DNA from: a virus
Virus record (IMG/VR): IMGVR_UViG_3300046011_005224
Coordinates: 1 to 27,994 of that record
Reading direction: 5' to 3' (one strand)
Length of the DNA stretch: 27,994 nucleotides
Shown: positions 2,902 to 27,994 of the stretch, piece after piece
How positions within the stretch are numbered: the stretch's first letter is position 1
Layout of the letters: the number at the start of each line of letters is the position of its first letter
Notes under the pieces: generated by a model
Told to the model about the DNA's origin: nothing
Database searches by the model: none
Seen by the model: the letters and a program-made list of their open reading frames with translations, nothing else
Translations under genes and position numbers: made by a program

Positions 2902-2931
2902 AAAAGTTCAGGCAGCTTTCACTGCCTGAAC
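2901..2931 (-). terminator. Rho-independent terminator at the end of cca
   Basis: On the minus strand GTTCAGGCAG and CTGCCTGAAC form a perfect 10-base-pair stem around a 6-base loop (TGAAAG), followed directly by TTTTTAT. The last codons and stop of cca lie inside the hairpin. It would stop transcription from the cca promoter before the late kinase gene. Confidence 0.9.
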
Positions 2932-4137
2932 CCTTGCTTTAAGCATTCCGTCCTTGATCTTCGTCGTGTTCTTTTCGCCGTTTGGAAAAACATCGGCAAA
3001 CTTTACAGCGCGAACACGTTCAAAGACTTGCCGAACCTTCATCAGATGTTCAGTAGGTTCATCTTCTGAACCCAAACGTCCATTGTGATCACAGACCCCA
3101 ACGGCCCATAGCAGCAGAACAACTTCAGGATCACGAAACGCATCCATTTCCATGAACATATTCACAAACGTCTTTGGATTCAGTGTATCCAGTTTGTGCA
3201 TATGCATGTGAAACCGAGTTGTTCGCATAACTCGATCCCGCATCTTCGATGGAACAGTCAGACGATCACAGAAGTCACGAGCAACTTTCACACCCGACAT
3301 TTCATGTCCATAATGCTTTGGCAGTTGATCACGAGGAGTCAGACCTTTACCAAAGTCATGCACCAGACACGCCAGTCGAGTCTCCAGATCAAAGTTGCTC
3401 TCTGCAGCTTGAGTCAGAACCAGCATCGTATGTTCGTAGGCATCACCTTCAGGGTGCCACCGCCGAGATTCCAGAGCAGTCTTCAGTCGATACACTTCTG
3501 GAAACAGCACATGCAGAGCATCGCACTCCAACAGAGTATCAAAGAACAAACGAGGAAATTCCTCTTCCAGAGCTCGTGACAGTTCCTTCCAAACACGTTC
3601 AGCGGTCAGTTCATTCAGTACACCACGCTTTGCCATCGAAGCAACCAGAGAAACAGTTTCTGGTGCAACAGTCCATTCCGAACCTAAACGAGCACGGAAT
3701 CGAGCCAGTCGCAGGACGCGAACAGGATCTTCTTCAAAAGCATTTGAAGTGTGCCGCAGAACTTTATTTTGCAGATCAGTTTTACCGCCGAAGTAGTCAT
3801 GGACCAAGTAATGACCAGGATTATCTTCCTCTGCTTCGAAAGCCATCGAGTTGATAGTCAGGTCACGACGAGCCAGGTCTTCTTCCAGAGTCACATCGGT
3901 TCCAAATTCAGAGGTAAAGCCCAGGTAACCAGTCCCGGTCTTTTTCTCCCGACGGGCGAGAGCATATTCATCACCGGTTTCGGGATGCAGGAACACAGGA
4001 AAATCTGCACCGACCTGAGAAAACCCAGCAGCCAGCATATCAGAAGGAGATGAACCAACGACAACATAGTCTCGGTCTTTGGGTTCCAGACCCATCAGCA
4101 TGTCACGGACAGCGCCGCCGACCAGATATGTTTTCAT
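2908..4137 (-). CDS. cca: CCA-adding tRNA nucleotidyltransferase with HD domain
   Basis: A full-length 409-residue CCA-adding enzyme, closest in plan to E. coli Cca (412 residues). It has YLVGGAVRD (4-12), the catalytic DRD (21-23), RRDLTINSMA, EDPVRVLRLARFRARL, the ERVWKEL region, and a C-terminal HD phosphohydrolase domain with CLVHDFGKGLTP. The enzyme repairs or adds the 3' CCA of tRNAs. I chose ATG 4137, since AGAGGTG stands 7 bases before it, rather than the ATG at 4155. Codon use, rich in CTG, looks more GC-rich than the neighbours and suggests fairly recent acquisition from a gammaproteobacterium. Own promoter at 4162-4190. No tRNA gene is seen in the window. Confidence 0.95.
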   Translation of the reverse strand: MKTYLVGGAVRDMLMGLEPKDRDYVVVGSSPSDMLAAGFSQVGADFPVFLHPETGDEYALARREKKTGTGYLGFTSEFGTDVTLEEDLARRDLTINSMAFEAEEDNPGHYLVHDYFGGKTDLQNKVLRHTSNAFEEDPVRVLRLARFRARLGSEWTVAPETVSLVASMAKRGVLNELTAERVWKELSRALEEEFPRLFFDTLLECDALHVLFPEVYRLKTALESRRWHPEGDAYEHTMLVLTQAAESNFDLETRLACLVHDFGKGLTPRDQLPKHYGHEMSGVKVARDFCDRLTVPSKMRDRVMRTTRFHMHMHKLDTLNPKTFVNMFMEMDAFRDPEVVLLLWAVGVCDHNGRLGSEDEPTEHLMKVRQVFERVRAVKFADVFPNGEKNTTKIKDGMLKARVQAVKAA

Positions 4138-4161
4138 TGGTTCACCTCTTTTCATAAGACT

Positions 4162-7960: not shown

Positions 7961-7989
7961 TTGACATTTATTATTTGTTGTGTTATACT
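7961..7989 (+). promoter_or_regulatory. Sigma70 promoter for the 55-47-46 operon
   Basis: TTGACA (7961-7966), 17 bases, TATACT (7984-7989). It lies 31 bases before the gp55 start and within the 135-base gap after uvsW, where nothing else is apparent. Confidence 0.88.
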
Positions 7990-8020
7990 AGAAATAATTA
8001 AGAACAAAAGGAATTTCTTT

Positions 8021-8545
8021 ATGACTATTCAAAAAAGAGTAAAAAAGAACTATATTAATAATAAGGACCTTTTTGAAGCACTTGTCCAGTATCAAAAAGA
8101 CTGCAAAGAAGCAGAAAATTGTGGTGAAGAAAAACCAATTGTAACAAAATATATTGGCGAGTCAATCTATCAAATAGCTTCAAGACTTTCAACAAAACCA
8201 AACTTTTCTGGATATTCTTTTAAAGATGATATGGTGATGGATGGCATTGAAAATTGCTTACAATATATGCACAACTTCGATCCAGAGAAAACTCAAAACC
8301 CGTTTGCTTATTTTACACAAATTATTTGGTACGCGTTTTTGCGTCGTATTGCAAAAGAAAAAAAGCAGATGTACATACGATATAAGTCTTCTCACGAAAT
8401 GATTTCAATGGGAGAAACTTATGAAGGCGGCCAAGAGATAGCTCTTTATCTAAATACGAGCGCAGACTATATCAACAACTTTATTGAAGACTATGAAAGC
8501 AAATTGATTAAAGGTAAAAAGAAAACAATAGACGAGGAAGAATAA
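8021..8545 (+). CDS. 55: Late-transcription sigma factor gp55
   Basis: A 174-residue relative of T4 gp55 (185 residues). Shared segments in order are KNYINNKDLFEALVQY near the N-terminus, IYQIASRLSTKPNFSGYSF, DDMVMDGIENCLQYMHNFDPEK, NPFAYFTQIIWYAFLRRIAKEKK, and an acidic C-terminus. gp55 is a minimal sigma70-like factor that directs host RNA polymerase to TATAAATA promoters with gp33 and the clamp gp45. I set the start at ATG 8021, with AAAAGGAA 7 bases upstream, and reject a 39-codon extension that crosses the promoter. It lies at the head of the 55, small ORF, 47, small ORF, 46 operon. Confidence 0.93.
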   Translation: MTIQKRVKKNYINNKDLFEALVQYQKDCKEAENCGEEKPIVTKYIGESIYQIASRLSTKPNFSGYSFKDDMVMDGIENCLQYMHNFDPEKTQNPFAYFTQIIWYAFLRRIAKEKKQMYIRYKSSHEMISMGETYEGGQEIALYLNTSADYINNFIEDYESKLIKGKKKTIDEEE

Positions 8546-8703
8546 TGTTACCTGTCATAATTGAAGATTATATAAAGAATTTGACTAACAAAAATACGCA
8601 TGCTGAAAGAAGACAATTTTATTACATTACGCTTATTAAAATACGTGATGAAGTCGGTAATGCAATTTCTAAATATGAAAAGGAAAAGAGCACTCGTAAA
8701 TGA
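8545..8703 (+). CDS. Small conserved-position protein between 55 and 47
   Basis: A 52-residue basic protein (MLPVIIEDYIKNLTNKNTHAER at the start, YYITLIKIRDEV in the middle and a charged KYEKEKSTRK tail). It starts in a TAATG junction with 55 and ends in an ATGA junction with 47, so translation is coupled on both sides. That makes it a real gene despite its length. It has no recognisable domain and is probably two helices. Its position between a sigma factor and a recombination nuclease suggests a role in the operon's expression or as a partner, but this is inference. Confidence 0.75.
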   Translation: MLPVIIEDYIKNLTNKNTHAERRQFYYITLIKIRDEVGNAISKYEKEKSTRK

Positions 8704-9761
8704 AAATAGCCTTACTTTGTGATTCGCACTTCGGAACACGCTCGGACTCTAAAGTATTTTTAGAACACCAGGCTAAGTTCTTTCAAGAGCAGTTTTTTTC
8801 GTATCTAGAACAAAATGAAATTGATACGATTATACATTTAGGAGATATCTTTGACCGACGCAAGTATATCAACTTTTATACTTTAAAACGTGCCAAAGAA
8901 TTTTTCTTTGATGAGATGAAGAAGAGAAACATTGAAATGCATGCTATTCTCGGAAATCATGATACATTTTTCACTACAACAAACGAAATTAATTCAGTCG
9001 CTTTGCTACTTACCGAGTATGATAACATTCATATCTATGAAGATGAAGTTACTGAGTTGGATTTTGGCTCTACTCGTTTTGCAATGTGTCCGTGGCTTAC
9101 AAAGGAAAACACAGAAAAAAATCTCAAAGCACTCAAGAATTCAAATGCTCATATTCTTTGCGCGCATTTTGATCTAAAGGGGTTCGAAATGATGAAAGGC
9201 GTCGTGAGCGATCACGGACTTGATCACAAGACGTTTGACCACTTTGAAGCCGTGTATTCTGGACACTATCATCATCAGTCTCAGTATGGGAATGTCAAGT
9301 ATCTCGGAGCTCAGTACGAAATGAACTGGTCCGACTACGCTTGCAAAAAAGGATTTCATGTTATTGACACTGAAAATCGTGAGTTGACATTTATAGAAAA
9401 TGATGTTAGAATATATCATAAGATTAATTATGACGACGTAGATCTTACTATTGACGATATTGCGTCTCTTGACACTTCAGCTCTGAAAGATTGTTATGTG
9501 AAGGTTGTAGTGAAAAACAGAACAAATCCTTATCTATACGATCTATTCTTGAACAGATTAAACGAGTGCGGCGCAGCAGACATCAAGTCCGTAGAAGACA
9601 ATCTAAGTCTTTCAGAGTCTGGTGTTGAAGAAATGCTGGAAGACGCCAAGGATACAAAAGACATTTTGCATGCTTATATTGATTCTGTCGAAACGACGAT
9701 CGAAAAATCTAAAATCAAGAAAGTAGTAGATCAATTATATCTAGAAGCACTTAATGTTTAA
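8700..9761 (+). CDS. 47: Recombination nuclease subunit gp47 (Mre11/SbcD-like)
   Basis: A 353-residue calcineurin-like phosphoesterase matching T4 gp47 in length. The metal-binding motifs are in order: LCDSHFG (6-12), HLGDIFDRR, ILGNHDT, a CAHFD segment, and SGHYHHQS. gp47 with gp46 forms the Mre11-Rad50-type complex that resects DNA ends to start recombination-dependent replication. ATG 8700 overlaps the stop of the small gene before it (ATGA). The C-terminal region (EEMLEDAKDTKDILHAYID) would be the part that contacts gp46. All expected metal ligands appear to be present. Confidence 0.95.
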   Translation: MKIALLCDSHFGTRSDSKVFLEHQAKFFQEQFFSYLEQNEIDTIIHLGDIFDRRKYINFYTLKRAKEFFFDEMKKRNIEMHAILGNHDTFFTTTNEINSVALLLTEYDNIHIYEDEVTELDFGSTRFAMCPWLTKENTEKNLKALKNSNAHILCAHFDLKGFEMMKGVVSDHGLDHKTFDHFEAVYSGHYHHQSQYGNVKYLGAQYEMNWSDYACKKGFHVIDTENRELTFIENDVRIYHKINYDDVDLTIDDIASLDTSALKDCYVKVVVKNRTNPYLYDLFLNRLNECGAADIKSVEDNLSLSESGVEEMLEDAKDTKDILHAYIDSVETTIEKSKIKKVVDQLYLEALNV

Positions 9762-14280: not shown

Positions 14281-14676
14281 ATGAGTAATGACTGGGTCAA
14301 AGATATTCATGAAATGCATGCTCACTATGGTATGCATGAAAAATTTGCTGAATTTGACAATGAAAAGAAAAAACTGTTCCTAGAATTTAGAACAAGATTT
14401 CTTCAAGAAGAACTCGACGAACTCAAAGAAAACATTAACAACCCTGAGGAAGTAGTTGATGCTCTGATCGACTTATGCGTGGTTGCTATTGGTACTCTAG
14501 ACGCGTATGGCATTGACTCTCATAAGGCATGGGACGAAGTTCTTAGAGCAAACATGAACAAACGTGTTGGAGTAAAACCTGGACGTTCTAACCCACTCGG
14601 ACTTCCTGACCTTATGAAACCGGAAGGTTGGACTGCGCCGTCTCATGAAGGAAACCATGGTAACCTTCCAAAATAA
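14281..14676 (+). CDS. MazG-like all-alpha NTP pyrophosphohydrolase
   Basis: A 131-residue protein. The N-terminal DWVKDIHEMHAHYGM helix leads to LQEELDELKE (Glu43, Glu44, Glu47) and PEEVVDALIDLCVVAIGTL (Glu57, Asp60, Asp64), matching the ExxE...ExxD magnesium-binding pattern of the all-alpha NTP-PPase superfamily. The C-terminus ends RSNPLGLPDLMKPEGW, a tail often seen in phage members. Such enzymes hydrolyse (d)NTPs to monophosphates. T4 gp56 dCTPase is from the same superfamily. With a dCMP hydroxymethylase encoded downstream, removal of dCTP (and dUTP) is an attractive role, but specificity is inferred. The start has AAAGGAAA upstream. Confidence 0.85.
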   Translation: MSNDWVKDIHEMHAHYGMHEKFAEFDNEKKKLFLEFRTRFLQEELDELKENINNPEEVVDALIDLCVVAIGTLDAYGIDSHKAWDEVLRANMNKRVGVKPGRSNPLGLPDLMKPEGWTAPSHEGNHGNLPK

Positions 14677-15368: not shown

Positions 15369-16052
15369 ATGAGTGATCAATACACAATAGAGAACCGCAG
15401 CAAACTTGAGGCTTATCTCGCAACCCACAGCTTACCTAGTGGGCTTGGAAACGAGGAAAGTGCTTGCACTGTTGCAGCAATCAATCTCGCAATCACGGGC
15501 AAGCTCACGGATAAAATCCCAAGCTGTATGTCTTTGGTGCTTGGCCGGACTACTATTCGGATGCAGGACTGGATGCCTGATCAAATGCGTAACAGCAAAC
15601 GGTATAAGCGTTTAATCCCTGACATGCCGGGAACTGGTCGAGAGCGTGAGACTGAACGTCTTGCGGTGCTGATGGACTGGATGTGGACTGTTGTTTTACC
15701 ACAGTTACAGCCCTTAGCAGACAATCACGGTTTTGGGCCAGCATGGAGAAACATGTGCGAGGTTAAGACTCCTGCTGCTGCTGCTAATGCTGCTGAGGCT
15801 GCTGCTGCTGCTAATGCTGCTTGGGTTGCTGGTATTGCTGCTGCTCGTGCTGCTGCTCGTGCTGCTCGTGCTGCTGCTAATGCTGCTGCTAATGCTGCGG
15901 ACCGGCTGCACCGGCTACACGCCGCTGCTAATGCTGCTGAGGCTGCTGCTGCTGCTGTTGCTGCTCGTGCTGTTGATGCTGAATTTTGGGAGGTTGTAGA
16001 CCCAATTTGTGTGCTTGAGCGCATGACGTATCTTGGTGAGGGGGAAAGGTGA
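15369..16052 (+). CDS. Ala-rich repeat-tail protein
   Basis: A 227-residue protein with two parts. Residues 1-136 are ordinary in composition, with Trp- and Arg-containing helices (MQDWMPDQMR, RLAVLMDWMWTVVLPQLQPL) and a GFGPAW turn. Residues 137-205 are almost pure Ala with spaced Asn, Glu and Arg, written nearly only with GCT codons, and then a conventional tail (FWEVVDPICVLERM) resumes. The tract would form long alpha-helices, perhaps a hairpin. A 33-base sequence is duplicated exactly inside it. A GGAGA site precedes ATG 15369. I do not recognise the N-terminal domain. The function is unknown; a structural or protein-binding role is plausible. Confidence 0.72.
   Translation: MSDQYTIENRSKLEAYLATHSLPSGLGNEESACTVAAINLAITGKLTDKIPSCMSLVLGRTTIRMQDWMPDQMRNSKRYKRLIPDMPGTGRERETERLAVLMDWMWTVVLPQLQPLADNHGFGPAWRNMCEVKTPAAAANAAEAAAAANAAWVAGIAAARAAARAARAAANAAANAADRLHRLHAAANAAEAAAAAVAARAVDAEFWEVVDPICVLERMTYLGEGER
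15780..15812 (+). repeat. Copy 1 of a 33-base direct repeat (GCT-rich)
   Basis: GCTGCTAATGCTGCTGAG followed by five GCT triplets, identical to 15924-15956. It encodes an AANAAE-type segment plus five Ala. Such triplet runs expand and contract by replication slippage. Confidence 0.9.
15924..15956 (+). repeat. Copy 2 of a 33-base direct repeat (GCT-rich)
   Basis: Exact second copy of 15780-15812, 144 bases downstream and in the same reading frame, so a segmental duplication or slippage origin is likely. Confidence 0.9.
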
Positions 16053-17769: not shown

Positions 17770-18611
17770 AACTATCTGAAGTAACTAAAGAAATACATGT
17801 TTGGATCGCAGAAGATATTTTTGCGTTAGCAGACTTGTGTAGAAAAAAGAAAAACATTCTTGACGATAAATCTTACTACAGTTACTATCGCAGTCGAATT
17901 GGTATGATCGGCAACGCCTTTCATAGCAGCAAAGCAAATGTTGTTCTACCATACATGACAGAAGAAGCATCAAAGCTTAAATCCGGAAATAGAACGAATG
18001 AGCACGTGAATTCTAGACTTCGTCGCGCAAGACAGATTCTCGACAGAGTAATTGCAAATCCTAACATTAGGTTTGAAAGAATTGTTGCGTATGTAGTAGA
18101 CTCTTGCAAGGTCGTGCAGACTACAAACGAAGAAAACAAGCGTCTTGAGAAACGTAGGAGGAACCATCTGAATGACGGTAACAAAACAATTCCATGGCGA
18201 TACCTGTATAAACTTGAAAATTGTATTTTGATAGATCGTGATCTAAACGAATATAGAAAATATTACTATATGATTGAAGGTATTCGATACGACTCTGCTA
18301 CTGAAGTTGCAGAAGACTATGAAATTACTCCGGCAGAAGTTGACATGCGTGCTCTAAATAAAAATTCTTGTCATGATTGGACTAAACACTCTATCGAAAC
18401 TAACGAGCAAGTGTTTCGTAAAAAGTATCCTACAAAAAAGAAATCAAAAAGCAAAAAGTCACAAAAATATGTTTACATGATCAGTGGCGTATTATATAAT
18501 GCTAATGAAGCGACTACTAAATACAACATCACTCATTCTACTCTGATTAGTCGCTGTAAGGCAAAAACTAAATATCTAGACTGGAAACAATTTGAAAAAG
18601 AGGCAGCATGA
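17766..18611 (+). CDS. Putative DNA-binding protein with two NUMOD-like repeats
   Basis: A 281-residue basic protein. Residues 1-150 are helical and unrecognised. Two related segments follow: 166-205 (YYMIEGIRYDSATEVAEDYE...HDW) and 235-273 (YVYMISGVLYNANEATTKYN...LDW), joined by a Lys-rich linker (217-234). Each has a two-strand start, an A-rich helix and a second helix, resembling NUMOD-type DNA-binding repeats found in homing endonucleases. No GIY-YIG, HNH or LAGLIDADG nuclease motif is visible, so it may be a transcription factor or DNA-binding remnant. ATGA overlaps on both sides couple it to its neighbours. Moderate confidence in the repeat, low in the family. Confidence 0.6.
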   Translation: MKLSEVTKEIHVWIAEDIFALADLCRKKKNILDDKSYYSYYRSRIGMIGNAFHSSKANVVLPYMTEEASKLKSGNRTNEHVNSRLRRARQILDRVIANPNIRFERIVAYVVDSCKVVQTTNEENKRLEKRRRNHLNDGNKTIPWRYLYKLENCILIDRDLNEYRKYYYMIEGIRYDSATEVAEDYEITPAEVDMRALNKNSCHDWTKHSIETNEQVFRKKYPTKKKSKSKKSQKYVYMISGVLYNANEATTKYNITHSTLISRCKAKTKYLDWKQFEKEAA

Positions 18612-19168
18612 TTTTAATCATTGAAGGCATGGATCGTTGTGGTAAAACCACTCTTATATCCAACCTGAGAAAAAACTATTTCAGCAATCATAAAGTAATC
18701 GTACATCATTCATCTGCTCCGCCGAAGTGCGTAGCGGATAAAAATACATGGGAGGTAGATCATTATACAGATCTTGCAAAGACCTTTCATCGCCTCTCAG
18801 CAAACGACGGTTACGATATCATATGTGATCGCTTTCACCTTGGTGCAATGGTTTATGGTATGCGATATCGTGGACTCCAACCTCATACAATCTTTGAAGT
18901 TGACCGCGATGTAATTTCCTGCAGAGAAGAAAAGAAGATTGCTTTAATTCTTCTAACTGACTATGCAGATGCTATTATGGCAAGAAACGATGGCGAGTCT
19001 ATCGAAACAACAACTAAAGAGTTTGAAAGTACTCGAACCGAGTTTACAAATTTCTTTAACTATTCAATGATACAAAACAAACTACACATAAATATTACTG
19101 ATAATGGTGGTTTTCAAAGCACGTATCCTCGAGTAGAAGCATTTTTGGATAATCTATCAAATGAATAG
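18608..19168 (+). CDS. Thymidylate-kinase-like deoxynucleotide kinase
   Basis: A 186-residue P-loop kinase. LIIEGMDRCGKTTLI carries Walker A (Gly7 to Thr14), DRFHLGAMVYG (from Asp74) matches the DRx-type substrate segment of TMK-like enzymes, and CREEKKIALILLTDYADAIMARND resembles the strand and lid of that family. TMK makes dTDP from dTMP. In T4 the unrelated gp1 phosphorylates hydroxymethyl-dCMP. Placed two genes before the dCMP hydroxymethylase, this enzyme could take over that step, which is inference. It overlaps the gene before it by 4 bases and the next by 8. Confidence 0.8.
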   Translation: MILIIEGMDRCGKTTLISNLRKNYFSNHKVIVHHSSAPPKCVADKNTWEVDHYTDLAKTFHRLSANDGYDIICDRFHLGAMVYGMRYRGLQPHTIFEVDRDVISCREEKKIALILLTDYADAIMARNDGESIETTTKEFESTRTEFTNFFNYSMIQNKLHINITDNGGFQSTYPRVEAFLDNLSNE

Positions 19169-19619
19169 ATTGTTAGAAAAACAGTTAGGCGACGATGCTG
19201 AATACGTAGTAAAAGAATTCTTTGCGCAAAAAGGATATGAATTTATTTTATCCGAAAATAAGTACGATGATAAAAAAGATGCAATATTAATTGCAAATAA
19301 TGAACAGTATCAAGTTGAGATAAAGCTTGAGACAAGATACAAAAAGTTCAATTCGTTTACAATTCCAATTGAGTATAGCAATCAACTAAGTAAGTGCGCC
19401 AATGTTGACATGCTCATCTTTTGTCAACGCCCTACTCAAGATGATCCGACCTTTAAGATCTATCAAGCACCACCAGTCGGTCAAAGATTTTTTGAAATCA
19501 AACAAAATGAAATAGACAAGCGGCATGTAGCTCACTTTTTTATTGACAAAATGAAACTTATTGGTAAAATAACTAATAAGGAAATTATAGAAAAATACAT
19601 GGTAAGAAAGGCATACTAA
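19161..19619 (+). CDS. Putative PD-(D/E)XK nuclease
   Basis: A 152-residue protein with a possible PD-(D/E)XK core: Glu14 in an N-terminal helix (GDDAEYVVKEFF), Asp40 in DDKKDAILIANNE, and Glu53-x-Lys55 in YQVEIKLETRYK, with FNSFTIPIEYSNQLSK following. The spacing D-x12-E-x-K is right for the fold. I do not recognise a named family. Because it lies next to dCMP hydroxymethylase, a role in degrading host cytosine-containing DNA, as T4 denA/denB do by other means, is possible. This is inference. It overlaps the kinase gene and the next gene (TAATG). Confidence 0.6.
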   Translation: MNRLLEKQLGDDAEYVVKEFFAQKGYEFILSENKYDDKKDAILIANNEQYQVEIKLETRYKKFNSFTIPIEYSNQLSKCANVDMLIFCQRPTQDDPTFKIYQAPPVGQRFFEIKQNEIDKRHVAHFFIDKMKLIGKITNKEIIEKYMVRKAY

Positions 19620-20281
19620 TGCAAAGAGTTTCTGATATTCGAGCAAAGCTCATTCAAAAGTATCGTGATCAAGACTTTGTGACTGATAAGACCGGTGTTA
19701 AAACCATCGAGTTGATCGGCGAGTCATTTATTGCTGATGAAGACTGGATCATTCGTAAACCAAACTACGAATACATCGAACGTGAACTCGAATGGTATGA
19801 GTCGCAATCGTTGTATGTAGAAGATATTCCTGGTGAGACTCCTGCGATCTGGAAAAATGTTGCTTCAAAACATGGTCGTATCAACTCGAACTATGGTCAT
19901 CTCATTTGGTCTAATGAAAATCATAATCAATATGAAAATGTTCTTACTGAACTTTTGAATAACCCTAACAGCCGCCGTGCTGTCATGATCTACAATCGTC
20001 CTTCCATGCATACTGACTATTACGAAGACGATATGTCTGACTTCATCTGCACCTATGCAAACACATTCCTTATTCGTGACGGTAAACTTATCAGCCACTA
20101 TCTGATGCGTTCGAACGATGCAGTGTTCGGCTATGACAACGATGTTCACTGGGCAATGCATGTTCAGAAGAAACTCGCAGCAGACCTTAGAGTTGGAGTC
20201 GGTGATCTCATCTGGACTGCAACGAACCTGCATGTATACGAGCGCCACTTCAAGTTCATCGAAGAGTTGATGGATGCGTGA
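19619..20281 (+). CDS. 42: dCMP hydroxymethylase gp42
   Basis: A 220-residue thymidylate-synthase-fold enzyme that matches T4 gp42 closely: VTDKTGVKTIELIGESFIAD, YIERELEWYES then VEDIPGETPAIWKNVAS, GRINSNYGHLIW, MIYNRPSM and SDFICTYANTF with the catalytic Cys144, MRSNDAVFGYDND with Asp175, and TATNLHVYERHF. Cys144 and Asp175 stand in the places of T4 Cys148 and Asp179, with the same spacing of 31, and the Asp is the residue that favours dCMP over dUMP. It converts dCMP and methylene-tetrahydrofolate to 5-hydroxymethyl-dCMP. It is about 26 residues shorter than T4 gp42 at the C-terminus. TAATG start. Confidence 0.93.
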   Translation: MQRVSDIRAKLIQKYRDQDFVTDKTGVKTIELIGESFIADEDWIIRKPNYEYIERELEWYESQSLYVEDIPGETPAIWKNVASKHGRINSNYGHLIWSNENHNQYENVLTELLNNPNSRRAVMIYNRPSMHTDYYEDDMSDFICTYANTFLIRDGKLISHYLMRSNDAVFGYDNDVHWAMHVQKKLAADLRVGVGDLIWTATNLHVYERHFKFIEELMDA

Positions 20282-20447
20282 TATAGGTGTAACTTATACT
20301 ATCTCTGCACCACCCGAACCTGCTTGGAAGTGCCAACTAATAAACGGCGTATATTGGAACTTAGAAGAAGGCAAGCAACCAAACGCTTTTCATCGCTTTA
20401 TGCAGAGACTCTTCTTTGGAATTAAATGGAGTAAGATAAATGATTGA
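20274..20447 (+). CDS. Small 57-residue protein between 42 and dCMP deaminase
   Basis: It begins ATG 20274 inside the end of 42 and ends at TGA 20447, inside the start of the deaminase gene, overlapping both by 8 bases. It opens MRDIGVTYTISAPPEPAWKC and ends FHRFMQRLFFGIKWSKIND, with a distinctive aromatic and basic C-terminus. The overlaps on both sides support real translation. Proteins with a similar FHRFMQRL-type end are, as I recall, found in T4-like phages without a known function. It could be a small membrane-associated or partner protein. Confidence 0.72.
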   Translation: MRDIGVTYTISAPPEPAWKCQLINGVYWNLEEGKQPNAFHRFMQRLFFGIKWSKIND

Positions 20448-20910
20448 TAGTAAATGGGACAACCGCTTTATGAAACTCGCGCGCGAGATCTCAACTTGGA
20501 GCAAGGATCCTTCGAGCAAGATCGGCGCAGTGATCATAAATGATGAGCGTCGTATCCTCGCGACCGGTTATAACGGGTTTCCTCGTGGCATCGAAGATAC
20601 CGAGGAGCGTCTTAACGATCGTGAACAAAAGTATCCGCGTATCGTTCATGGCGAGATGAATGCTCTGATGAATGCGCTCTACAGTGGTGTATCCGTTAAA
20701 GACGCAACGATCTACGTCTGGGGTCTGCCGATCTGCTCTGAGTGCACTAAGTCGGTCATTCAATCCGGTATTAAACGAGTCGTAATCACATACCCTGAAT
20801 ACGCTCCTGAGAAATGGCAGAACCAGTGGAATGGAATGTCCAAGCCGATGTATCAAGAAGCGGGTGTCTCGATTACATACGTCAATGAAAAGCATTGGAG
20901 CTTTGAATAA
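20440..20910 (+). CDS. dCMP deaminase
   Basis: A 156-residue cytidine/dCMP deaminase-fold enzyme. It has DPSSKIGAVI, HGEMNAL (His70, Glu72, where most members have HAE) and PICSECTKSVIQSGI (Cys99, Cys102), giving the zinc and proton-shuttle residues. It deaminates dCMP to dUMP, which feeds dTTP synthesis. In T4 the same enzyme (cd) works with gp42 in the nucleotide complex, so both share the dCMP pool. It overlaps the preceding ORF by 8 bases. Downstream there is a gap of 90-100 bases holding the next promoter. Confidence 0.93.
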   Translation: MIDSKWDNRFMKLAREISTWSKDPSSKIGAVIINDERRILATGYNGFPRGIEDTEERLNDREQKYPRIVHGEMNALMNALYSGVSVKDATIYVWGLPICSECTKSVIQSGIKRVVITYPEYAPEKWQNQWNGMSKPMYQEAGVSITYVNEKHWSFE

Positions 20911-20986: not shown

Positions 20987-21014
20987 CGCTCGCAACAACA
21001 TGAAGGATTATATG

Positions 21015-21905
21015 ATGAAACGTGGTGACATATTAGTTACGGGCGCATACGGATATATTGGTGCTCATATCTGCAAAGAGGCATACGAGAACGGCTTCAA
21101 TGTCTATGCAATAGATATTAACACTTCAAAAAATAATATATCTAAATATTGCAAAGACATAAAGATAGTCGACATTCGAAAGGACGCAGAATTTTTTCAG
21201 CATAAAGAGTTTTTTGAAAAACATTTTGATGCTGTAATACATTGTGCTGCTCTTATCTCAATCGAAGAATCAGTAGAAAAACCTCACATCTATTATGACA
21301 CAAATGTAAATGGTGTTTTAAAAACAATACTGCACACAAAATGCGATAATTTTATTTTTGCTTCTACTGGTGGAGCTTTTGATCCTATTTCGCCGTACTC
21401 TAAATCTAAATTGATTGCTGAACATGTAGTCAAAACGATGTGCAGCAGCTTCAATATTTTTAGATTCTTTAATGTAGCAGGAAACAATGGTGAGTTTGGA
21501 CAGATCTGTAAACCAAGTCATATCATGCATATCGCAGCTCAGGTAGCTGCAGGCAAAAGAGATAAAATGGTGATCTTTGGGAAAGATTATAACACTTTTG
21601 ATGGCTCGTGTGTGCGCGACTACGTGCACGTGCAGGATCTTGCAGAAGCAATAGTAAGAAGCATATACGAACCTCTCAATTCAGAATATGAGTGTGTTGG
21701 TTCCGGTTCTGGATACTCTAACATTGAAGTTGTAGACGCGATGAAAAAAGCTTCAGGACAAGATTTTAAAGTCGAATTTGGAGAAAGAAGAAAGGGAGAT
21801 CCAGACTTTCTGAAAGTAGATCGTCCTTCTGAATTTGTAGAAATAAAAAGATCCATTGAAGATATGTGTTATTCTGCTTATTTGACGGAAATGAAAAATG
21901 GCTAA
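21015..21905 (+). CDS. UDP-glucose 4-epimerase-like SDR (GalE family)
   Basis: A 296-residue extended short-chain dehydrogenase. It has the NAD-binding GAYGYIGAH (a GxxGxxG motif), DAVIHCAALISIEESVEKP, the catalytic YSKSK, FFNVAG, and DGSCVRDYVHVQDLAEA, which follows GalE. GalE interconverts UDP-glucose and UDP-galactose; related sugars are possible. It is shorter than bacterial GalE (about 338) mainly between STGGAF and PISPYSKSK, where a loop is missing. ATG 21015 has AAGGA 7 bases before it; ATG 21000 or 21012 are alternatives. It overlaps the next gene by 8 bases. With the glf gene it could provide UDP-galactofuranose. Confidence 0.85.
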   Translation: MKRGDILVTGAYGYIGAHICKEAYENGFNVYAIDINTSKNNISKYCKDIKIVDIRKDAEFFQHKEFFEKHFDAVIHCAALISIEESVEKPHIYYDTNVNGVLKTILHTKCDNFIFASTGGAFDPISPYSKSKLIAEHVVKTMCSSFNIFRFFNVAGNNGEFGQICKPSHIMHIAAQVAAGKRDKMVIFGKDYNTFDGSCVRDYVHVQDLAEAIVRSIYEPLNSEYECVGSGSGYSNIEVVDAMKKASGQDFKVEFGERRKGDPDFLKVDRPSEFVEIKRSIEDMCYSAYLTEMKNG

Positions 21906-22569
21906 GGGACTCAGTGATATATACGTTGGAGTAAATAAGTCCGACCCGAATAGAAGGGATAACGATTTTTATCCAACACCACCAATAGCAACATATGTTC
22001 TTCATAAATACTTCGATCTGCCAAAGAACATTATGGAACCTTGCGCAGGTAGAGGAAACATATCAGTCGAACTGGAAAGATGCGGATATAACGTAACTTC
22101 CTTTGATCTCCACAAATACGACAATCTTCTAACTAAAGTTAGTGACGGTCAAGATTTTATGAGTCTTTCTCGTCAGCCAGAAATAGAAGCAGTAGTTACA
22201 AATCCACCATATCACAAAGATCTTCCGAGAAAGATGGCGGAAAAATCCGTATCGGAATATCCTGTTACAGCAATGTTTCTTCGTCTTACATTTCTTGAGG
22301 GAAAGAAACGAAAAAAGTTGTTTACAAATTCTAAACCAAGTGATATAATAATACTATCTGATCGAGTAAAATTTGAAAAGAATATAATTGAACCGATTGA
22401 AAAGAAAGATCAAATTGGTGGTATGATTAGTTACGCTTGGTTTATTTGGGATAAACGACGTGACAACATTAATACCCGTCTACAATGGGTGACTCTTGAA
22501 AATGAATATGACGAATGGAACAATCATTTTTTGGCGTACAAACAACAGTATTTAAATAATTTGCTATGA
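21898..22569 (+). CDS. N6-adenine-type DNA methyltransferase-like protein
   Basis: A 223-residue SAM-dependent methyltransferase. DNDFYPTPPIATYVL leads to motif I EPCAGRGNI (47-55), SFDLHKY, and motif IV NPPY (102-105). This is the order and NPPY signature of N6-adenine methyltransferases. Target recognition would come from the C-terminal half, which is short, so it might be a stand-alone phage methyltransferase acting on DNA or another amino group. It sits between galE-like and glycosyltransferase-like genes, so a role on DNA or on a modified base is plausible. ATG 21898 lies within the end of the gene before. Confidence 0.8.
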   Translation: MAKGLSDIYVGVNKSDPNRRDNDFYPTPPIATYVLHKYFDLPKNIMEPCAGRGNISVELERCGYNVTSFDLHKYDNLLTKVSDGQDFMSLSRQPEIEAVVTNPPYHKDLPRKMAEKSVSEYPVTAMFLRLTFLEGKKRKKLFTNSKPSDIIILSDRVKFEKNIIEPIEKKDQIGGMISYAWFIWDKRRDNINTRLQWVTLENEYDEWNNHFLAYKQQYLNNLL

Positions 22570-22581
22570 GGTAAATACAAA

Positions 22582-23694
22582 ATGTCTAAACAGAAAATAC
22601 TTATTACTGGTTTAAATAAAAATCAGTGCACTAAAGATTACTTTTTGACTCAAGAACTTCAGGTTGTTCCATCACATTACTCACTTATCCGTAGTCTCGA
22701 GGATATGGGTTATGCGGTAGAACAGAGGCCCGTTGTTCTTGGAGAAGATCTATCTGGATATGCTGAAGTAATTCTTTATATTCATAGTATACAAGCATTC
22801 TGTCAATTTCTATGGGCAGGTCTTTATACAATGACAGCAAGACCAGATTGTATCATCGCTTTTGATGATTGGCAGTTTAATCAGATCATGTATTCCTTTA
22901 AGCAATATCGTAAAGATCTTACTGAAAAGGAAGACAAAGTTTTTAGACAGTATCTCTTCGATCTTTGGCAGGGCAAGGAAGACCAAGAGACTGTTATGAA
23001 GTACAAGCAAAACTATATGGATGCTTGCGATCTTATTCTCGAAAAAAATAATCGTATTTTGGTTTCGGCTTTTGCAGGAGGTGACATCGGTCTTCTCGAT
23101 CTTGGTTGGAATAAGGATAAGATTTTTACGTACAATCCAAACCCATATCATCTGAATAGAACTTTTGAAAATAATTATGGTAAAGAAGAGGATCTTTTTT
23201 CTTTCTTAGATGGATACGATCGTGTAAAACCAGAAGAAAAAGTGCGTCAATGGAATTTTGCTTCGTTGGTTCAGGAAAAAACAAGAAAGTGGCTAGAAAA
23301 ACAAAAAGTTTCTTGGGATATTAACTACTACGGAGCACGTAGAGGAGAATTCAAGTCCGAAAGAAAGACTGAACCTGATATGTGCAGAGTATATGAAGAG
23401 CAATGGGGTTGTTTGATGCCAGGATATTTCCATGCAGGATCTGGTTGGTGGAGAGCTAGACCGCTGCAGGTTGCAGACGCTGGATCGATTATCATCGGTG
23501 ATGAAAAGGAAATGAACGTTTACTATCGAGATTCGTATTTGTCTTCTCTTAAGGCTTCAGATATCGAAAACATGGATCTAACTCAACTAATTCAGACCGC
23601 TGCAGCACAAAAAGAAGCGATCTATGCAAACCATCCTATTGATAAGAAAATTCAGCAAGAAGAACTAAAACGCATTATTGAGGCTACTAAGTGA
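22582..23694 (+). CDS. GT-B-like glycosyltransferase A (candidate DNA-glycosyltransferase)
   Basis: A 370-residue protein with two Rossmann-like halves. The N-terminal half includes VPSHYSLIRSLEDMGYAV and EVILYIHSIQAF; a middle stretch has DIGLLDLGWNKDKIFTYNPNPY; the C-terminal half has WDINYYGARRGEF, GYFHAGSGWWRARPLQVADA and GSIIIGDE. The order (SLIRSLEDMG near the start, YYG, R-rich loop, IIIGD) resembles the general plan of T4 beta-glucosyltransferase, but similarity is remote and the family is not certain. Sugar and acceptor are unknown; hydroxymethylcytosine DNA is my inference from neighbours. The next gene starts GTG inside its stop (GTGA). Confidence 0.65.
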   Translation: MSKQKILITGLNKNQCTKDYFLTQELQVVPSHYSLIRSLEDMGYAVEQRPVVLGEDLSGYAEVILYIHSIQAFCQFLWAGLYTMTARPDCIIAFDDWQFNQIMYSFKQYRKDLTEKEDKVFRQYLFDLWQGKEDQETVMKYKQNYMDACDLILEKNNRILVSAFAGGDIGLLDLGWNKDKIFTYNPNPYHLNRTFENNYGKEEDLFSFLDGYDRVKPEEKVRQWNFASLVQEKTRKWLEKQKVSWDINYYGARRGEFKSERKTEPDMCRVYEEQWGCLMPGYFHAGSGWWRARPLQVADAGSIIIGDEKEMNVYYRDSYLSSLKASDIENMDLTQLIQTAAAQKEAIYANHPIDKKIQQEELKRIIEATK

Positions 23695-24779
23695 AAAACG
23701 CTCTAATTATTACAACTCGTGCATTTTCTTCTGACTTTAAGTCACTCTATGAACAGATGGCTTTCCTTAAGGAAGAATATGATAACATCTATTTGGTGCA
23801 TGCATATACCACAGATAGAATGAGAAAGTTTGTGGAAGAAACTGCTAGAATTAAGATTGCGGCAGACTTTAGTATTTCAAGCCACGTTGATGATGTAGGT
23901 AAGAAATGCATTTACAAAAATTGGGAAGAGTACTATGATAACTTAGATATTTCTTTCTTAAAAGATATTCATATCGACGACGTTTGGATGTTCGGAGCTC
24001 CTCTAAGTGAGGGTGGACATTTGAAGCGCGGTGCTCTCGGTCTAAGTAAAAACTTTAGAAAAAATTCCTATATGAATTTTTTAAGTGTTTCTAAATACTA
24101 CATCATAAGTTATATTGCTTTAAAAATAGCAAATGAAAAGAAAGCTTTCTATCGTGAAATCTGTTACGATCCAGGCGAAGCATCAGTAAATGAAATTACT
24201 GAACAAAAAATTATGCCTACACAAGGATTTGAAGTTTATCACGGTTACGACATTGATATGTATGGTATGAAAAAACATTCATCATATCAATATGGACTCA
24301 AGGCTGTGGGCAAAACATTCCCGTTTGCTTCTAAAGACTACGATGTAACATTTGGATATTCCTTTATGACTAAAGAAAGAAAAAATGATCACGAATTGAT
24401 GCAAAAAGTTTACTCTGATATTCAGGGAAAAGTCAATGGAAATCTTCTTTACAGATCAAAGAAAGATGATCATGATTCTTTAGTTGGTAAAGACGCGTAT
24501 ATGTGCTTGATCGCAGAATCAAGATATACATTTATCATACCGGCATATATGAAAGGTGCCTTCTCATGTTTGCGCTTTATTGAATCGATATTCTATAATT
24601 GTCTTCCTCTAGTTTTTGATCATTGCGTCTATGAAGAATTCTTTGAATCTTATAACATAGATAAAAGTATCTATGATGAAATCATTGTAAATCAAGATAA
24701 TGTGCTAGACAAACTTACCAATATGACTGAACAAAGACGCGTTGAAATTATTGAATATATGAAGGAGAAACTATTCTGA
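23691..24779 (+). CDS. GT-B-like glycosyltransferase B (exostosin-like C-terminus)
   Basis: A 362-residue protein that looks like a second glycosyltransferase. The C-terminal region CLIAESRYTFIIPAYMKGAF followed by SCLRFIESIFYNCLPLVFDH has the arrangement of GT-B nucleotide-sugar sites, close to exostosin-type ends (SRY...P...G..S.RF.E....C.P). The N-terminus (MKNALIITTRAFSSDFKSLY) would be the acceptor half. It starts at GTG 23691 and overlaps the next gene by 1 base (TGATG). Tandem position suggests that it acts after, or as an alternative to, enzyme A. A role in adding sugar to DNA is inferred; cell-surface glycans are the alternative. Confidence 0.6.
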   Translation: MKNALIITTRAFSSDFKSLYEQMAFLKEEYDNIYLVHAYTTDRMRKFVEETARIKIAADFSISSHVDDVGKKCIYKNWEEYYDNLDISFLKDIHIDDVWMFGAPLSEGGHLKRGALGLSKNFRKNSYMNFLSVSKYYIISYIALKIANEKKAFYREICYDPGEASVNEITEQKIMPTQGFEVYHGYDIDMYGMKKHSSYQYGLKAVGKTFPFASKDYDVTFGYSFMTKERKNDHELMQKVYSDIQGKVNGNLLYRSKKDDHDSLVGKDAYMCLIAESRYTFIIPAYMKGAFSCLRFIESIFYNCLPLVFDHCVYEEFFESYNIDKSIYDEIIVNQDNVLDKLTNMTEQRRVEIIEYMKEKLF

Positions 24780-25798
24780 TGAAGAATATTCTTGTTGTCG
24801 GTGCTGGTTTTTCCGGTGCTACTATTGCTCGTGAACTAGCAGAGTCTGGATATAAAGTCTGGGTGTTTGAATCGCGTAATCATGTTGCCGGTAACGCGTA
24901 TGATTATGTAAATGAACATGGTATTCGTGTACATCAATATGGACCTCATTTGTTTCATACGAGCAATCAAAATGTGTTTAAATGGCTATCTCGGTTTACA
25001 GAGTGGATTCCTTACAAGCACAAAGTAAAAGCTCAACTTGAAGATGGCAGATATGTTACTCTACCAGTAAATAAAGAAACAAAAGAAATCGTTGGAAATG
25101 AAAATGTTCTTGATATTTTCTTTCGGCCTTATACAAAAAAGATGTGGGGAGTTTCATTAGATGAGCTTAACCCAGAGATTATTAATCGCGTTCCAACTCG
25201 TGACGATATGAACGAATTCTATTTCCCTGATGACGTGTATCAATTTATGCCAAAAGATGGATACACAAAGATGGTAGAAAATATTCTAGAACATCCAAAC
25301 ATTACCGTAAAACTAAACACGTACTATGACCCAGACATGGAAAAAAATATCGGAATATTTGATCATGTTTTTAACTCTATGCCAATTGACCAATACTTTA
25401 ACTTTAAGCACGGGCATTTGCCATATCGATCTATACGGTTTGAAACAGTAACTATTCCAATTCCTCGTGCTCTTCCTACTACTACAGTAAACTTTACTCA
25501 CGATGGACCAAAAACCAGAGTAACTGAATGGAAAAATATTCCTAACCATGGAGACAATAAATACTTCACAACACTGACTTTTGAAGAGCCATGCGATTAC
25601 AAAAATAATAACATGGAAAGATACTATCCTGTAAAAGACAGAGATGGTAAAAACAGAGAGTTGTACGAGAAATACAAGGCAGAACAACCAGAAAATATGA
25701 CCTTTATCGGTCGTTGTGGTCTATATGCGTATCTTGATATGGATCAAGCAATTAATTCTGCGATGGCAATATCTAGAAAATTTTTGAATAAGGAATAA
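24779..25798 (+). CDS. glf: UDP-galactopyranose mutase
   Basis: A 339-residue FAD enzyme matching Glf/UGM. It has VVGAGFSGATIAREL (FAD GxGxxG), FESRNHVAGNAYDY, HQYGPHLFHTSN, PYTKKMWGVS, RVPTRDDMNEFYFPDDVYQF, and FIGRCGLYAYLDMDQAI near the C-terminus, the conserved segments in order. UGM converts UDP-galactopyranose to UDP-galactofuranose through a flavin adduct. It is within the normal length range. It overlaps the glycosyltransferase before it by 1 base. With the galE-like gene it gives a complete UDP-glucose to UDP-galactofuranose route. A UGM in a phage DNA-modification context is unusual. Confidence 0.95.
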   Translation: MKNILVVGAGFSGATIARELAESGYKVWVFESRNHVAGNAYDYVNEHGIRVHQYGPHLFHTSNQNVFKWLSRFTEWIPYKHKVKAQLEDGRYVTLPVNKETKEIVGNENVLDIFFRPYTKKMWGVSLDELNPEIINRVPTRDDMNEFYFPDDVYQFMPKDGYTKMVENILEHPNITVKLNTYYDPDMEKNIGIFDHVFNSMPIDQYFNFKHGHLPYRSIRFETVTIPIPRALPTTTVNFTHDGPKTRVTEWKNIPNHGDNKYFTTLTFEEPCDYKNNNMERYYPVKDRDGKNRELYEKYKAEQPENMTFIGRCGLYAYLDMDQAINSAMAISRKFLNKE

Positions 25799-27033: not shown

Positions 27034-27659
27034 TGAAATATCTTTTTATAGACTTTGAAACTATGGGTCAAAACGTACATGACTGCGCAGTGATAGACTG
27101 CGCAGCCATTTGTATAACAACTGAAAAAATGTTATCATCTGATCCTTATAACTTAAGGGATATAGTAAACGTAAATAAGTTTAAGTTGTCTATTAAGGAT
27201 CAGGTTGAAAACTATAACTCTAAAGTATATGAAGACACAGTAAAATTCTGGTCTACAGTATCAGAAGAAGCAAGAAAACATATCAAACCTCTTAAAACAG
27301 ATCTTACTGTAGAAAATTTTGTAGAGGATTTTTTGAAATATCTTATTGACTGCGGTAAGATTGATTATTGGTGGTCTAGATCAAATACATTTGATCCTGT
27401 TCTACTCGCTCGCATCTTTGATTCTGCAAATAAATACAATCATATGAACGCGTATCTTCCTCACTGGAAAATTAGAGATATTAGAACGTTCATAGATGTT
27501 AAATTAGATTTTCCTAAAAAGAATGGTTTCGTCCCAATTCAGGATGAAGAAAAATGGAAAAAAGTTTTTGTAGAACACAATAGTTCTTGGGATGTTCTTG
27601 CCGATGTTTTAAGAATGCAGGCCGTTTTAAGAGCAGAGAATGATTTGGAGCAAGTGTAA
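27033..27659 (+). CDS. dexA: DexA-like 3'-5' exonuclease
   Basis: A 208-residue DEDDh exonuclease. FIDFETMG (Asp7, Glu9), AVIDCAAI, KFWSTVSEEARKHIKP, RSNTFDPVLLARIF, KIRDIRTFIDV and HNSSWDVLAD (the final His-x4-Asp) follow T4 DexA (227 residues) in order. DexA degrades ssDNA from the 3' end. I take ATG 27033, which forms a TGATG junction with the previous gene, over the GTG at 27030. A perfect palindromic repeat (CTGCGCAG, 27083-27090 and 27098-27105) lies in its first codons. Confidence 0.9.
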   Translation: MKYLFIDFETMGQNVHDCAVIDCAAICITTEKMLSSDPYNLRDIVNVNKFKLSIKDQVENYNSKVYEDTVKFWSTVSEEARKHIKPLKTDLTVENFVEDFLKYLIDCGKIDYWWSRSNTFDPVLLARIFDSANKYNHMNAYLPHWKIRDIRTFIDVKLDFPKKNGFVPIQDEEKWKKVFVEHNSSWDVLADVLRMQAVLRAENDLEQV

Positions 27660-27994
27660 TGTCTAAAAAAGTATTAATAACAGGTTTAGCAGGATTTATT
27701 GGATTTCATACTGCAAGAAAGCTTAAGTCACTAGGTTATAAAGTGTGTGGCCTTGATAATTATAATGATTATTACGAGGTAGAATTAAAAGAAGCTCGTA
27801 CTCAAGAGTTAGCTAAAATTGATATTGATGTTAAAAGATGCGACCTTCGAGACGCTAAAATGACATATGAGTTTGTTGAAGAACAGAAGCCAGATCTTGT
27901 TATACATCTTGCAGCTTACGCTGGAGTAAGACATTCTTTTAATAACCCAATGGAGTACATAGAGAATAATATATTAGGTACACAGAACTTAATT
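27659..27994 (+). CDS. UDP-glucuronate 4-epimerase-like SDR, N-terminal part
   Basis: The gene starts in a TAATG junction with dexA and runs off the window. The first 112 residues hold ITGLAGFIGFHTARKL (NAD binding), GLDNYNDYY, and LAAYAGVRHSFNNPMEYIEN, an arrangement typical of UDP-glucuronate epimerases (GAE/CapI) that turn UDP-glucuronate into UDP-galacturonate. A related 4- or 5-epimerase is possible. Its place after the glf, methyltransferase and dexA genes suggests that the sugar-nucleotide block continues beyond the window. Confidence 0.85.
   Translation, partial: MSKKVLITGLAGFIGFHTARKLKSLGYKVCGLDNYNDYYEVELKEARTQELAKIDIDVKRCDLRDAKMTYEFVEEQKPDLVIHLAAYAGVRHSFNNPMEYIENNILGTQNLI

Follow-up and report, generated by a model that had tools for sequence, protein, structure and literature searches.

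A UDP-galactopyranose mutase gene in a T4-type phage replication region and its predicted role in DNA hypermodification

The window, by which we mean the whole stretch of DNA analysed, is an IMG/VR virus fragment of 27,994 bases. It contains a T4-type replication block with a UvsW-like helicase, a gp55-like sigma factor, gp47, gp46 and a DNA polymerase. The polymerase is nearest to those of Phage C48C1 (classed in the Kyanoviridae) and Synechococcus cyanophages, at 42–43% identity, and its gene is followed by that of a MazG/PRA-PH-type pyrophosphohydrolase. A UDP-galactopyranose mutase gene (UGM, glf) is placed within this replication region, alongside genes for a dCMP hydroxymethylase (HMase), a dCMP deaminase, a UDP-glucose 4-epimerase (GalE), two glycosyltransferase-like proteins (GT1 and GT2) and two methyltransferase-like proteins. 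Located 5' of UGM on the same strand are a kinase, the HMase, the deaminase, GalE, a methyltransferase-like gene, GT1 and GT2. The 3' side carries a C5-methyltransferase-like gene, a DexA-like exonuclease and a second epimerase that is cut off by the window end. The features are as follows.

14281–14676, + strand: MazG/PRA-PH-type nucleotide pyrophosphohydrolase, possible dCTPase (PF01503, 1.8e-8; PHROG 671, 2.7e-21; dCTP substrate inferred)
18608–19168, + strand: dNMP kinase, thymidylate-kinase-like, possible hmdCMP kinase (Pfam Thymidylate_kin, 2.6e-9; PHROG 761, 8e-13; substrate inferred)
19619–20281, + strand: dCMP hydroxymethylase of the T4 gp42 family, predicted to make hmdCMP
20440–20910, + strand: dCMP deaminase (PHROG 174, 7.5e-44)
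21000–21905, + strand: UDP-glucose 4-epimerase (GalE), predicted to make UDP-galactopyranose
21898–22569, + strand: DNA methyltransferase-like protein (PHROG 799, 1e-43; NPPY motif read from the sequence)
22582–23694, + strand: GT1, T4 beta-glucosyltransferase-like (GT-B fold), predicted hmC-DNA glycosyltransferase (AlphaFold model, PDB matches and profile match)
23691–24779, + strand: GT2, second glycosyltransferase-like protein, accessory, with distant GT47 (exostosin) similarity
24779–25798, + strand: UDP-galactopyranose mutase, short form, 339 residues
25801–27033, + strand: cytosine-C5 DNA methyltransferase-like protein (PF00145, 1.3e-21)
27659–27994, + strand: second nucleotide-sugar epimerase, truncated at the window end (PF16363, 1.7e-24; PHROG 540, 4.7e-27)

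The UGM reading frame starts with an ATG that overlaps the TGA stop of GT2 (24777–24779) by one base, as the original prediction, made from the sequence alone, had stated; GT1 and GT2 overlap by 4 bases. The protein contains the GLF domain (PF03275, 2.2e-53) and an FAD-binding Rossmann domain (PF13450, 5.7e-19), and its closest PDB relative is the Deinococcus UGM (3hdq, E 4.8e-76). Residues W123, R137, R247, Y282/Y283, Y318 and D320 align with the known active-site residues of 3hdq and 1wam, and are also conserved in alignment A3. The claim that the full set of UGM segments is present holds for the active-site residues. It needs correction elsewhere, as the helical domain is approximately 34 residues short. 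This absence likely explains why the protein scores 292.9 bits against the NCBIfam equivalog TIGR00031, just under the annotation threshold of 303.75. The linker between P96 and Y118 comprises 19–23 residues throughout the main phage clade compared to 54–59 in bacteria, so the deletion is specific to the clade and does not reflect decay. The long form of UGM is found in Aeromonas phage 25, Erwinia phage FBB1 and actinophage DSL-LC01.

The phylogeny suggested as a check of the original prediction assigns the window UGM to a phage clade that is supported and comprises 71 rows. Its nearest relative is viral and 83% identical, while the bacterial relatives retrieved, a set that is not exhaustive, reach at most 47% identity. 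Recent gain of the gene from a bacterium is therefore not supported. A chance match or artefact can be rejected, as the gene is full-length, conserved and part of a conserved gene order. An intact UGM family member is present at this position; its conversion of UDP-galactopyranose to UDP-galactofuranose is inferred.

The linkage to a dCMP hydroxymethylase, also claimed originally, is confirmed. The HMase belongs to the T4 gp42 family (1b49, E 1.3e-72) and keeps the equivalents of the catalytic Cys148 and the cytosine-selecting Asp179. An aspartate at the Asp179 position is shared with TS-like proteins that are more distant, so the assignment rests on the strong overall match to gp42. GalE matches PDB entry 7k3p (E 3e-46), with GalE entries throughout the top matches, and TIGR01179 (E 2e-62), where it falls under the equivalog cut-off. 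These matches show to which families UGM, HMase and GalE belong; the catalytic activities of the three are inferred.

GT1 matches no Pfam family, and PDB sequence searches with the GT1 and GT2 profiles gave nothing useful. An AlphaFold model of GT1 built with 39 homologues has a pLDDT of 93.4 and a pTM of 0.90, and supersedes an earlier model based on 8 sequences (pLDDT 71). When the model is compared with the PDB, ranks 1–5 are all T4 DNA beta-glucosyltransferase (BGT), with E-values of 1.2e-6 to 3.4e-5 and moderate TM-scores of 0.53–0.60. Identity in the structural alignment is approximately 10–13%. A broad GT1 profile matches BGT over the whole length in hhalign, with a probability of 89% in local (E 2.6e-6) and 94% in global mode; a smaller alignment gave a weak match of 63%, restricted to the N-terminus. 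In the full-length alignment, D95 of GT1 lies opposite D100 of BGT, and D96, which follows it, does not vary among GT1 sequences. D100 is the catalytic base of BGT. The model thus predicts a BGT fold for GT1, that of the GT63-like DNA glycosyltransferases, and we predict that the protein is a glycosyltransferase of DNA containing 5-hydroxymethylcytosine (hmC). Its hmC glycosylation activity, DNA as the acceptor and galactofuranose as the donor sugar are inferred.

The second transferase is less certain, and the claim of two glycosyltransferase-like genes before UGM is only partly borne out. GT2 matches Pfam GT47 with an E-value of 0.03 (14.0 bits, gathering score 33.4), and a relative in the viral locus L077 reaches 1e-5 (25.5 bits), also below the cut-off. 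Judged by sequence similarity, GT2 resembles a glycosyltransferase weakly. Profile comparisons of GT2 with BGT and of GT1 with GT2 were not significant. Pattern scans for GT2 relatives returned three with an alignment as the query, and none with either the single GT2 protein or a Vibrio protein. GT2 is missing from the close relatives L110, L113 and L104 and is located after UGM in L011/L012. In L077 its relative occurs with HMase and UGM in the absence of GT1, and in Agathobaculum phage AB434P2 it adjoins a hydroxymethylase gene. Vibrio phages carry a relative near tail-fibre genes and have no UGM in the genome. We rejected GT2 as an essential partner, since close relatives have GT1 and UGM without it. 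It is a rare accessory that may add a second sugar, a role that is a guess.

The association between UGM and GT1 recurs across viral loci. A scan of viral contigs with the UGM alignment alone yielded 79 loci beyond those already collected, with GT1 adjacent in 55. Including nine earlier loci, GT1 lies beside UGM, within two genes, in 62/88. Using GT1 as the query added another 63 loci, and UGM is adjacent in 54 of them; the two scans overlap in contigs. The pair is found in the Kyanoviridae (C48C1), the Straboviridae (Aeromonas phage 25, Erwinia phage FBB1), an actinophage and contigs of 290–360 kb. Among isolates, GT1 is adjacent to UGM in Aeromonas phage 25 and its relatives, FBB1, C48C1 and DSL-LC01; the Aeromonas phages Aes012 and IME13 also have the pair. 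Both orders, GT1-UGM and UGM-GT1, occur, and two UGM forms are involved.

The pair is in turn linked to the genes that would provide hmC. HMase is present in 32 of the 39 GT1-UGM loci with at least 5 kb of upstream sequence. Of the 20 UGM loci that lack GT1, by comparison, a single one has HMase, and it also carries GT2. A whole-record search of FBB1 and phage 25 revealed a strong HMase elsewhere in both genomes. Of the seven other GT1-type loci, five (L080, L096, L100, L101 and L102) contain a TET/JBP dioxygenase in the same cluster; the assignment for L100 rests on L102, where gene order and ORF lengths are identical. TET/JBP dioxygenases are the other route to hmC. Phage C48C1 shows the same TET-GT1-UGM arrangement. 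The last two loci have neither HMase nor TET in the cluster: L056 carries a TS-like gene elsewhere on the contig, and no hmC-making gene was found on the 45-kb fragment L064, where the GT1-UGM pair is present. A TET-associated glycosyltransferase (TAGT) is present in two UGM loci that lack GT1: in L016 it is adjacent to UGM, and in L038, which shares the replication setting, it lies approximately 2.7 kb upstream. From this distribution of HMase, TET and TAGT we infer that the partner of UGM is a BGT-like or TAGT-type transferase, and that the source of hmC is HMase or TET.

GT1 loci without an adjacent UGM keep HMase in 8/9 cases, which indicates that GT1 follows hmC. GT1-family members without UGM occur on the fragments L140–L142, L144, L159–L162 and L165, mostly by HMase, and in Providencia phage PSTRCR_127 and Gordonia phage Mareelih. 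The family as a whole is therefore not tied to galactofuranose and the choice of donor may vary; the fragments suggest more than one donor sugar.

A 2x2 test of HMase against GT1 gives a Fisher p of 8e-9, treating the loci as independent although they are related. The locus counts are not independent observations in the phylogenetic sense, and separate gains or losses are few. A tree-based test of independence finds just 3–5 independent pairs, and its sign test is not significant and underpowered. Stronger support than the counts comes from the fold of GT1, from the occurrence of the pair in both gene orders and with either form of UGM, and from the exchange of HMase for TET in loci where the pair is retained.

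It had been proposed that a full-length UGM in a phage replication/nucleotide region, linked to dCMP hydroxymethylase, is unexpected, such genes being normally tied to bacterial surface polysaccharides. The first part needs qualification, as full-length UGM relatives are not rare in phages: we found 88 isolate records and at least 576 IMG/VR stretches, not all of the GT1-linked type. The second part describes another group. A second class of phage UGM sits in LPS-like clusters, in L097 with GT8, GT25 and a carbamoyltransferase, and in L013 with a family-2 glycosyltransferase; judging from these neighbours, it looks like surface-glycan synthesis. The proposal would have been refuted if phage glf genes were always linked to surface or tail genes and never to hydroxymethylase genes. 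This is not so, given the 32/39 loci with HMase and five more with TET/JBP. The original prediction that galactofuranose is the donor for DNA glycosylation is supported for one class of phage glf genes, not all, and the identity of the attached sugar is an inference.

We consider it likely, with a probability of about 0.68, that the cluster encodes a DNA-hypermodification pathway in which GalE and UGM make UDP-galactofuranose and GT1 transfers the sugar to hmC. This is a prediction without any chemistry, and the identity of the sugar is the other main doubt. Taken as a whole, the cluster would cover the synthesis of both hmdCMP and UDP-galactofuranose, with all catalytic activities inferred. 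First, the gp42-type HMase would make hmdCMP, the kinase would assist its phosphorylation to the triphosphate, and hmC would enter the DNA through the T4-type polymerase. GalE would convert UDP-glucose to UDP-galactopyranose, and UGM would convert this to UDP-galactofuranose. Finally, once the DNA has been synthesised, GT1 would transfer galactofuranose onto the hydroxymethyl group of its hmC, and the resulting coat would shield the DNA from host nucleases. What has been shown is the family membership of UGM, HMase and GalE, the conservation of the active-site residues checked in the first two, the fold prediction for GT1 and the repeated linkage. That DNA is the acceptor, that galactofuranose is the donor, what GT2 does and that the modification is protective are inferences. 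It is also possible, as a bolder reading, that GT2 adds a second sugar after GT1, resulting in a genome that carries a disaccharide on galactofuranosyl-hmC. By inference, distantly related phages with the same pairing probably also coat their DNA with galactofuranose.

The proposed pathway resembles hmC glucosylation in T4, with an HMase of the same family that keeps C148 and D179 and a transferase with the BGT fold (predicted for GT1), both in the replication region. It differs in the low identity of GT1 to BGT and in the supply of the donor: the window phage brings its own GalE and UGM, so the donor is probably UDP-galactofuranose, whereas T4 uses host UDP-glucose. Arabinosyl-hmC in RB69 is likewise an hmC sugar whose donor needs phage-encoded sugar-nucleotide genes (PMC6024577). 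There, ORF003c and ORF053_052c are used, and neither mutase nor furanose appears as a word in the main text of that paper. The window UGM, in contrast, implies that the sugar is a furanose hexose. The system of TET and TAGT is similar in that TET/JBP replaces HMase beside GT1-UGM in several relatives and UGM lies near TAGT in L016 and L038. The window instead uses a gp42-type HMase and a BGT-like transferase, and neither TET nor TAGT was identified among the window genes scanned. Bacterial glf genes for cell-surface galactan share the enzyme family and active-site residues with the window UGM, which differs from them in its phage clade with the helical-domain deletion, its DNA-modification neighbourhood and its low identity to the bacterial relatives retrieved.

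While hmC glycosylation in phages is already known, galactofuranose as its sugar would be a new variant. In the open-licence literature searched, we found no paper that connects UGM or galactofuranose with the modification of phage DNA, and none that describes a disaccharide base built on galactofuranosyl-hmC. If the reading is true, a furanose hexose joins the sugars known on phage DNA, GT1 is a new transferase that modifies DNA, and a new case arises for the defences that recognise sugars on hmC through type IV restriction or DNA glycosylases. It would also explain a gene that published phage work reads as an aid to, or an attack on, the host cell wall, and it concerns many environmental phages and several cultured ones.

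Of the two main rivals, the one closest to this reading has the same target and logic: the UGM homologue acts on UDP-L-arabinopyranose, and GT1 places arabinofuranose on hmC. Arabinosyl-hmC is known from RB69 (PMC6024577), a second epimerase lies at the window end, and a UDP-glucose dehydrogenase is annotated in the same region of Phage C48C1. UDP-arabinopyranose can be a substrate of UGMs, and UDP-xylose of GalE-type enzymes. However, UDP-glucose 4-epimerase is the closest match of the cluster epimerase, the window UGM retains the active-site residues seen in galactose-specific enzymes, and no UDP-glucuronate decarboxylase was identified in the window, which is itself just a fragment. We regard this version as unlikely.

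It is similarly unlikely that UGM and the transferases alter host LPS or capsule, for example for superinfection exclusion, with their location among replication genes being incidental. The LPS-like clusters of L097 and L013 favour this explanation. Pelagimyophage glycosyltransferases have been read as O-chain genes (PMC7029224), and phage UGM has been described as a cell-wall or host-survival gene, the Atu_ph04 (PMC6630229) and DSL-LC01 (PMC10611076) genes both being read as cell-wall genes. Against it, BGT is the best PDB fold match of GT1, and GT1 tracks HMase or TET, not surface genes. The DSL-LC01 UGM itself adjoins a GT1 homologue, in a nucleotide-metabolism region. A third explanation, in which the UGM-transferase pair glycosylates a protein of the virion or host and for which the weak GT47 similarity of GT2, its lack of a known acceptor and the Vibrio relatives near tail-fibre genes in genomes without UGM could be cited, is very unlikely, as it leaves unexplained why the pair follows HMase or TET.

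Several further observations concern the neighbourhood of the pair. Actinophage DSL-LC01 has two GT1-family genes, one on each side of UGM (L022, 10001–13146). The TET-type locus L102 carries a Glycos_transf_1 gene between GalE and GT1 (7976–8959), possibly a further sugar transferase. The C5-methyltransferase-like gene is a conserved neighbour, present in 33/79 viral UGM loci of the scan, though gp42-type phages should hold little unmodified cytosine; motif VI of the window protein reads ENA, where ENV is usual.

Elsewhere in the window, an alanine-rich, low-complexity ORF with Ala/Asn runs and no PHROG match is located at 15369–16052. A tRNA nucleotidyltransferase of the CCA-adding/poly(A) polymerase type with an HD domain is encoded at 2908–4155 on the minus strand, despite which no tRNA gene was found within the window. 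The minus-strand gene at 834–1574 matches eukaryotic-type phosphomannomutase (PF03332, E 2.3e-26) and adjoins a cytidylyltransferase-like gene at 421–837.
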